The notes under the pieces are model-generated. The model saw only the letters and a list, made by a program, of their open reading frames with translations. It did no database searches and had not been told where the DNA came from. The translations under genes were made by a program, and so were the position numbers. This document shows positions 2,763 to 8,037 of a stretch of 37,867 bases of DNA, in pieces. Position 1 is the first letter of the stretch. Each line of letters starts with the position of its first letter. The DNA comes from Phycisphaerales bacterium (lineage in GTDB: Bacteria > Bacteroidota > Bacteroidia > Chitinophagales > Chitinophagaceae): contig JASGCP010000007.1 of the NCBI GenBank assembly GCA_030053995.1, positions 1-37,867 of the forward strand, written 5' to 3'.

Positions 2763-2787
2763 CTCAGCACCTCAAAAAATAATTGAG
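2763..2787 (+). repeat. R1 core copy upstream of the cysteine-rich peptide gene
   Basis: Reads CTCAGCACCTC followed by AAAAAATAATTGAG, a diverged copy of the R1 core. It ends about 30 nt before the -7 box of the peptide gene. Confidence 0.55.
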
Positions 2788-2793
2788 ACATTT

Positions 2794-2826
2794 TTTGTCC
2801 TTTTCACTTAAAATACGTTAACTTTG
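2794..2826 (+). promoter_or_regulatory. Promoter of the cysteine-rich peptide gene
   Basis: TTTG at 2794-2797 (-33 element) is followed after 21 nt by TAACTTTG at 2819-2826 (-7 element), a full match to the Bacteroidota promoter pattern. Transcription should start only a few bases before the ATG at 2839, giving a very short leader. The -7 box overlaps an in-frame TTG, which is why the longer reading from 2824 should not be taken as the start. Confidence 0.7.
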
Positions 2827-2838
2827 CAAAAAAAAATC

Positions 2839-3096
2839 ATGAAACAAAAATCAATGAATTTGGGTTCTGTTTTAGGAAGGCATGAGATTAAAGTTGTAAA
2901 AGGCGGGGGGCATAGCTTAAAGGATACCACTTGCTCTGCCGATTCGCAATGTGCCGTTGTGTGTGCAGGTTATCCAGTGTGTAGTAGTTTACCCCCTCGG
3001 AGTTGTAATGCCTGTTATAGCTGTACAGACAATGCGTGTTATATTTGGTGTAATTGTCCTGCCAAATGTCCTGATGCGTATGCTTGTGGCACTTAA
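2839..3096 (+). CDS. Orphan 12-cysteine peptide precursor with double-glycine leader
   Basis: An 85-residue peptide. Residues 1-23 form a leader containing LGSVLGRHEIKVVKGG, which matches the Bacteroidota GG-type natural-product precursor pattern (a Leu-rich helix, then E-[IM]-K and a GG cleavage site used by C39-peptidase ABC exporters). The remaining 61 or 62 residues carry 12 cysteines, at 32, 38, 42, 48, 56, 59, 62, 67, 71, 73, 77 and 83, with few charges. That suggests a multi-disulfide, thioether or metal-binding core. The ATG at 2839 is chosen over upstream TTG 2824 because the promoter overlaps the latter. No modification enzyme, peptidase or exporter lies nearby; the left side is IS debris. 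The leader class is inferred from motif and the activity is unknown. Confidence 0.75.
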   Translation: MKQKSMNLGSVLGRHEIKVVKGGGHSLKDTTCSADSQCAVVCAGYPVCSSLPPRSCNACYSCTDNACYIWCNCPAKCPDAYACGT

Positions 3097-7200: not shown

Positions 7201-7929
7201 CATACAAAGTAAAATATCGTGTACAGTTGCGTCTTCTTTATCCACATAATGAGAATCATTAGTGGCAATAGCTGGTATTTGATATTTTTTTGATAGCTTG
7301 ATCAATACATCGTTAATCTTTTTTTGCTCCTCTATGCCATGATTCTGAAGTTCTATAAAAAAGTCTTTGCCAAAAATATGTAGCCACCATTGAAGTTCTT
7401 GTTCTACTTTTTCTTCACTTTCATGTAAAATATATTGCGGAATAATAGCACCAATGCAACAGGTTGTAGCAATTAATCCTTCATGGTATTGCTCAATCAG
7501 TTTTTTATCAATACGCGGATATTTGCTATAAAACCCTTCTATATAACCTAAGGATGATAGCTTAGATAAATTTTGGTATCCAATTTTATTTTTAGCTAAT
7601 AATAATTGATGGTATCGTTTGTCTTTTTTTTCTTTTGTAAAACTTTTTATAAATCGGTCTTCAACCATATAAAACTCACAACCGATGATGGGTTTAACTA
7701 TTGGTTGAATAATGTCGTTGCCATGATCATCTTTGCCAACTATTTTAACATTATTTTTTTTCCACCCCTCTGCTAAAAAATCCATGACGCCAAACATGTT
7801 GCCGTGGTCGGTAATAGCTAAGGCGGGCATGTTGTCTTTTTTAGCTTTCTCAAATAACTTTTCAGCACTAGCCATACCATCTAAAAGAGAGTATTCTGTA
7901 TGCACATGTAGATGTGAAAATTGGGGCAT
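4222..7929 (-). CDS. dnaE: DNA polymerase III alpha subunit
   Basis: The replicative polymerase catalytic subunit, 1235 residues. An N-terminal PHP domain starts with HLHVHTEYSLLDG (residues 7-19). PGRGSVAGS near 395 and SMPDIDTDFD near 435 mark the family C palm with catalytic aspartates. GTGVHAAGVI near 560 and YGITVYQEQVM near 725 are further DnaE signatures. A helix-hairpin-helix region (about 860-930) and a C-terminal OB domain (about 1040-1110, ITAAQHRKTKTGREYG) follow. It lacks the inserted exonuclease domain of PolC, so it is DnaE type. It is single-gene, convergent with the acyltransferase gene and divergent from the OB-fold protein gene. Confidence 0.97.
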   Translation of the reverse strand: MPQFSHLHVHTEYSLLDGMASAEKLFEKAKKDNMPALAITDHGNMFGVMDFLAEGWKKNNVKIVGKDDHGNDIIQPIVKPIIGCEFYMVEDRFIKSFTKEKKDKRYHQLLLAKNKIGYQNLSKLSSLGYIEGFYSKYPRIDKKLIEQYHEGLIATTCCIGAIIPQYILHESEEKVEQELQWWLHIFGKDFFIELQNHGIEEQKKINDVLIKLSKKYQIPAIATNDSHYVDKEDATVHDILLCMQTGAMVKDPGMDDFTDGEETKKGRFKFPSNNFYLKTTQEMSILFKEIPEALDNTNIIVDRVELYDIKQDLIFPDFPLPKEFQLHAEEKLNQWAYLQYLTQEGARKRYGEITAVIQNRLDFELSTIKKMGFSGYFLIVWDFIRYARDNNIRVGPGRGSVAGSVVSYCLEITNVDPFKYGLLFERFLNPDRKSMPDIDTDFDVVGRIKVMEYVAQKYGRDQVGQIITISKMAAKSSIKDAARVLDFPLALSARLNSLIPATQKEILLSDLLNPSVKNEFSTDPRYQQNIETLRSLYANSNSDESKILKIAEQLDGIVRGTGVHAAGVIIAPKDLKEILPVAISKESPYLLTQYHKDIIESVGVIKMDFLGLRNLNIIYDTLALIKKNHGVDIDIDSISLDDKKTFALFQRADTFALFQFESSGMREWLKKLKPDRFSDLIALNALFRPGPMKYIDTYIARKFGKEKIEYDLPEMEEILSETYGITVYQEQVMLLSRKLSEFTEGDADLLRKAMGKKDIKTMHKIKEKFMNQAGKRFPLEKLEKIWKDWESFAEYAFNKSHSTCYAFVAFQTGYLKANYPQEYMSQVLNWADTADRKEQCLEDCYKMNLIIARPDINISAWDYLAEKEGNIRMGLKSVKGLSESFATSVMHEREINGPFTNFYDFVERMKKANGKGLTKTCIEVLAYSGSLDCFSEYHRAQYFFTPPGERLSALEKILQSMDSIEKKSKNKYAGPSLFGEPTKEEKSKNFSLPPCPEMEKAEKLKHEKNIVGMFISGHPLDIFNFELGGIVSRYKIFPLKDFAIYKERLLNEMTLNSTGRDKTNLTTLKIAGMITAAQHRKTKTGREYGSFVLEDKTGSQSFNIWAENYLKYKHFLQVDQAVYIKGSFVKSYNQSDIEFQVGSIYSLYDLKKQETRSITLTMEDPNVLTKDFIKNLQQLIKTKRGNTVLKIVLKDRESDTELSLVNKDIPFEMSDEIVDFLQNTLTIQFSIDTLQ

Positions 7930-8037
7930 ATTTTTTAGGATTATATGAACGGAATTGAGGATAACCTGTAAACTAAGTGGGGTGTAAATGTATTATTTTT
8001 TTCTTTTTAAAAAGGAAGCTGTTTTTTAAAAAATAGG

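Follow-up and report, generated by a model that had tools for sequence, protein, structure and literature searches.

The bacteroidetocins, a group of class IIf bacteriocins described by Coyne et al. (2019), carry four cysteines, their gene regions hold no immunity gene, and active toxin depends on a C39 exporter as well as on a thiol oxidoreductase (PMC6671954). A second point of reference is the SyncA-SyncM set of marine picocyanobacteria, with up to 79 substrates (PMC9872173). The gene analyzed here lies at positions 2839-3096 (+) of the window, that is, the whole stretch of 37,867 nucleotides under study, and shares features with both. The gene is real and is neither an orphan nor a relic, but belongs to an exceptionally numerous group of probably exported, disulfide-rich peptides in a genome of the Chitinophagaceae.

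The open reading frame starts with ATG and is translated into a precursor of 85 aa with 12 cysteines. The double-glycine leader MKQKSMNLGSVLGRHEIKVVKGG (2839-2907, +) ends in KGG at residue 23 and scores 54.3 bits (E = 4.9e-14) with leader model A2. The core that follows (2908-3093, +) is 62 aa long and contains all 12 cysteines, with none left in the leader, in the framework C-x5-C-x3-C-x5-C-x7-C-x2-C-x2-C and more. An earlier sequence-only reading had described a leader of this type and a 12-cysteine core of about 61 residues, and both are borne out, the core at 62 residues. It had also proposed aligning homologues for cysteine conservation: leader and cysteine framework are indeed conserved among the paralogues, where M1, K2, L8, G9, R14, K18 and G22 of the leader are invariant and the cysteine columns of the hypervariable core are kept while the loops diverge. 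Eight precursors share the window-gene frame C-x4-6-C-x3-C...C-x2-3-C. The window peptide has no significant match in Pfam, NCBIfam, PADLOC or PDB sequence searches and none at E ≤ 1 to NF047798 or TIGR04149, and no core homologue with a solved structure or known activity was found in Pfam, NCBIfam and PDB sequence searches. Its predicted fold, with a mean pLDDT of 49, is uninformative.

A whole-peptide search of the own assembly (2.28 Mb in 203 contigs, 89.9% complete) returned 14 full-length matches, namely the window gene and 13 paralogues, the best of these at E = 3e-10. A search for other leaders of this type, as suggested in the sequence-only reading, marks 110 places at E ≤ 1 with a leader-only model. 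Iterating the leader model on the stretches fetched around these matches (at least 45 aa, E < 0.01) gives 96 distinct intact precursors. They are spread over 57 contigs, and 33 contigs carry just one. The label "orphan" given to the gene in that reading is thus wrong. The idea that it survives from a cluster broken by IS elements is likewise rejected, since the 96 precursors are scattered among unrelated genes, many of housekeeping type as judged by eye, with no recurring partner gene. The neighbor survey found neither a recurring immunity-like family nor a linked receptor family beside the own-genome precursors, and the sole sizeable recurring group is a lipoprotein-like family (n = 9). An open reading frame remnant at 2654-2791 (−) of the window, with the motif LTDNGLKFTNN, looks by eye like a degraded integrase or transposase core and is probably the IS trace noted before.

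Two leader shapes occur in the family: the window gene has the short form, and in the longer form GG is preceded by an additional xxxxLK segment. Leaders share a mean pairwise identity of 46% as compared to 24% for cores, and the mean cysteine frequency of the cores is 13.4%, against 1.2% in the large open reading frames of the window. The number of core cysteines is even in 86 precursors and odd in nine (n = 95, p = 3e-17), as expected for disulfides; a few precursors have odd counts or only zero to two cysteines, and CxC and CxxC motifs are found in several cores. Positive selection on the cores is left undecided by dN/dS values of about 0.3 to 2 in close pairs with few changes. We also noticed a duplicated precursor on contig C9 (L061:6628-6870 and 7691-7933) in which the leader is present and the core has no cysteine, consisting of a repeated MPAGYTPS-like sequence; each copy adjoins a peptidyl-tRNA-hydrolase-like open reading frame, partly truncated.

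Upstream of the window gene, a predicted promoter of the Bacteroidota −33/−7 type, whose consensus we take from prior knowledge, was read by eye at 2794-2826 (+); it consists of TTTG (2794-2797), a 21-nt spacer and TAACTTTG (2819-2826), in agreement with the promoter proposed earlier. It is preceded at 2768-2789 (+) by the end of a dispersed repeat, CACCTCAAAAAATAATTGAGAC (consensus CACCTCAAAAAATGATTTAGCC), pointing toward the gene. The repeat occurs at window positions 82, 2768, 14377 and 35088 and at about 56 other sites of the genome, and related sequence upstream of the end CACCTCAAAAAATGATTTAGCC extends for up to about 270 bp. A reading of the repeat as the end of a coding gene was rejected because stops run through all frames, so that it is taken as non-coding. 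Among the 60 copies in 428 kb of fetched own-genome DNA, 22 face a precursor gene no more than 260 bp away, against a naive expectation of about 6%, a comparison to be read with the fact that repeats and precursors both avoid coding DNA. Precursors with a flanking repeat may be mobile cassettes. A different element, the ECF-sigma-like TTAAC-N13-21-GTCTAA, precedes 16 of the 96 precursors as compared to 2 of 188 control genes; it is absent upstream of the window gene and, in the form TTAAC-N17-GTCTAA, suggests a shared regulon for a subset of precursors. A second shared 5′ element, ATTATTAAnCGA, is found upstream of eight precursors (eg, L002 and L018), in some of them followed by a short inverted repeat, GAGGTTTTGCAAACCTC.

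The sequence-only reading had supposed that the exporter might be encoded elsewhere and had called for a genome search for C39-peptidase ABC exporters and HlyD-like proteins; both were found on contig C113. C39 domains occur in only two proteins of the genome, which are adjacent there. The gene order is a C39-like/VKOR/thioredoxin fusion (553 aa), a C39 ABC exporter (741 aa), an HlyD-like protein (456 aa), directly behind this machinery a GG-leader peptide (82 aa, 8 cysteines), and then a DsbD-like protein. The VKOR, thioredoxin, C39, ABC and HlyD domains all score over their Pfam cut-offs. The exporter retains the C39-site residues Q10, C16 and H90, and the C39-like part of the fusion aligns to the profile only from position 32 and hence lacks the catalytic cysteine. 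The VKOR part of the fusion has a CxxC motif (Cys301, Cys304) and loop cysteines Cys214 and Cys225, the thioredoxin site reads CNPYCGPC, and these cysteines are conserved in seven homologues. VKOR-thioredoxin fusions make disulfides with a quinone as acceptor, and we infer the same chemistry for the C113 protein. The locus likely encodes the shared machinery for the precursors; further exporters could be missing from an assembly that is about 90% complete and split into 203 contigs.

When 84,980 species genomes were scanned for the fusion, 200 relatives were obtained; 77 loci were read, from Chitinophagaceae, Sphingobacteriaceae, Flavobacteriaceae and others. At least one GG-leader peptide is found at 62 of the 77, usually one to five per locus and 97 in total, and 58 of the 92 on the same strand begin no more than 700 bp after the fusion. 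Six cysteines are found in 53 of the 97 and eight in 30, with some at four or ten; counts are even or zero in 91 and odd in six (p = 7e-21). Chance is rejected as the source of the leader matches, since the same peptide scan of the reversed DNA of the fusion loci gave none and a model of the own leader gave only three single matches among 397 other genomes of the order (E ≤ 1e-3). A broader leader model has matches in 63 of 395 other genomes of the family with a maximum of nine, as compared to at least 22 in the own genome, a figure that is the number scored. In a set of 395 Bacteroidota genomes, high numbers of leader matches are otherwise confined to two, with 56 and 62 (E ≤ 1). These two (G534 and G747) are Flavobacteria-class genomes of one genus in the same class, and their expansion is independent of the one described here. 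Their peptides, about 60 each (L251-L254, L259, L260), mostly have four to six cysteines and are encoded in tandem close to an exporter module of the same kind. A collection scan with a profile built from the peptide alignment gave no confirmed relative. The module thus recurs across Bacteroidota and the large expansion does not recur in the family. The window gene and its genome show the full pattern of the module, namely the leader motif LxRxxxKxxxGG, an even number of core cysteines, and the C39-VKOR-thioredoxin fusion with a C39 ABC exporter and HlyD. No paper describing a VKOR-C39 module was found in the open-access collection searched, although one may exist.

We consider it probable that the precursors are exported, leader-cleaved and disulfide-bonded peptides, most likely antagonistic, that diversified around one exporter. 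The single C39 ABC exporter of C113, with its HlyD partner, would bind the shared leader, probably cleave it behind GG, and export the core. The fusion would oxidize the core cysteines and feed the electrons to quinones through its VKOR domain, while its C39-like domain, devoid of the catalytic cysteine, may dock the leader. Cores framed by disulfides would then be released, and would be free to diversify into a large arsenal because export and oxidation would read only the leader. The proposed export and disulfide steps draw on a strong domain anatomy, and the secreted, disulfide-rich peptide that had been proposed before is supported by the GG leader, the even-cysteine bias and the co-encoded, predicted disulfide-forming fusion. 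As to the role, the analogy to bacteroidetocins makes antagonism the most likely, bacteriocin-like against competing bacteria and perhaps against predators or hosts. The missing immunity-like neighbor is unusual for bacteriocins, and the bacteroidetocin regions likewise lack one. A bolder and tentative extension is a venom-like system, in which one exporter and oxidase would serve about 100 hypervariable disulfide-framed peptides, knottin-like ones included, encoded by single scattered genes that would evolve as copies are made and their cores diverge, perhaps with the flanking repeats helping them to spread, and acting on neighbors or a eukaryotic host.

The same chemistry could instead serve a role other than antibacterial, with the peptides as effectors directed at a host or predator, for example in a symbiont of a eukaryote. 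This is considered because some cores resemble animal knottin toxins: a paralogue on contig C184 (L049:3829-3990) has cystine-knot spacing in its core and is nearest to the Pfam family Toxin_18 (conotoxin O-superfamily; E = 1.8e-4, under the curated cut-off), and a loose cystine-knot spacing fits five cores, the window core itself fitting no C-C-CC-C-C spacing. The genome is also small for the family, at 2.28 Mb. However, the module has simple relatives in genera that live free in soil and freshwater, and a search of the own genome for an ATP/ADP translocase gave no match, which is uninformative as the control was silent too. We regard such a role as rather unlikely. Signaling or surface and structural functions (matrix, adhesion) by the same secretion route appear improbable. 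Some Gram-positive bacteria use GG peptides as pheromones, and the genes behind the ECF-sigma-like promoter may be co-regulated, but nearly 100 hypervariable cores with no receptor family linked to them speak against this reading.

Metal binding had been named as an option in the sequence-only reading, and metallothionein-like or redox-storage peptides, retained or exported, would account for the high cysteine density and the CxC and CxxC motifs; the even-cysteine bias in two independent sets, the export leader, the association with a presumed disulfide-forming fusion and the absence of any metallothionein Pfam match in the window peptide and its paralogues make them very improbable. A lantibiotic, sactipeptide or other thioether peptide, also raised in that reading and suggested by leaders that resemble TIGR04149 of radical SAM-modified peptides (the sibling at the exporter locus reaches 19.7 bits against a cut-off of 25), is rejected as very improbable, since neither a SPASM radical SAM protein (TIGR04085; control positive in 10 of 14 genomes) nor a LanC-like protein (PF05147; control positive in only 1 of 14) was found in the roughly 90% complete assembly.

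The C39-like/VKOR/thioredoxin fusion and its C39 exporter appear to form a widespread and so far unnamed Bacteroidota route to disulfide-rich peptides. Provided that the machinery depends on the leader to the extent that it seems to, it would offer Gram-negative bacteria as ready hosts for secreting such peptides, open up many unexplored candidate antimicrobials, and parallel the evolution of conotoxins in a bacterium.

The likeness to bacteroidetocins is one of features: a Bacteroidota GG leader, a C39 ABC exporter, a dedicated thiol oxidoreductase, disulfides (here presumed), and no immunity gene found. Bacteroidetocins, however, have their four cysteines in about 42 residues as compared to 12 in 62 for the window core, and a single precursor encoded within a compact region of four genes, whereas here about 96 precursors are dispersed, with exporter and oxidoreductase on C113, away from the window gene; the oxidoreductase, a C39-like/VKOR/thioredoxin fusion, also differs from theirs. 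The prochlorosins and SyncA-SyncM resemble the present set in that one leader-reading machine would serve tens of precursors whose leaders are conserved and whose cores are hypervariable. Prochlorosins are lanthipeptides made by LanM, while disulfides are the most likely crosslinks here. A similar leader core, LxRxxxKxxxGG, is found in NF047798 (leader_Chryseo, bacteriocin-like protein) and TIGR04149, and several relatives score just below their cut-offs; unlike the TIGR04149 type, the present set comes with no SPASM radical SAM protein in its assembly, and its window peptide is unmatched. Cone snails, too, have extensive families of toxins held by disulfide bonds, and with the conotoxin and knottin superfamilies of animals only the pattern is alike, a conserved leader before hypervariable disulfide frames; no homology is claimed, and leader, export route and maturation all differ from those of the bacterial set.
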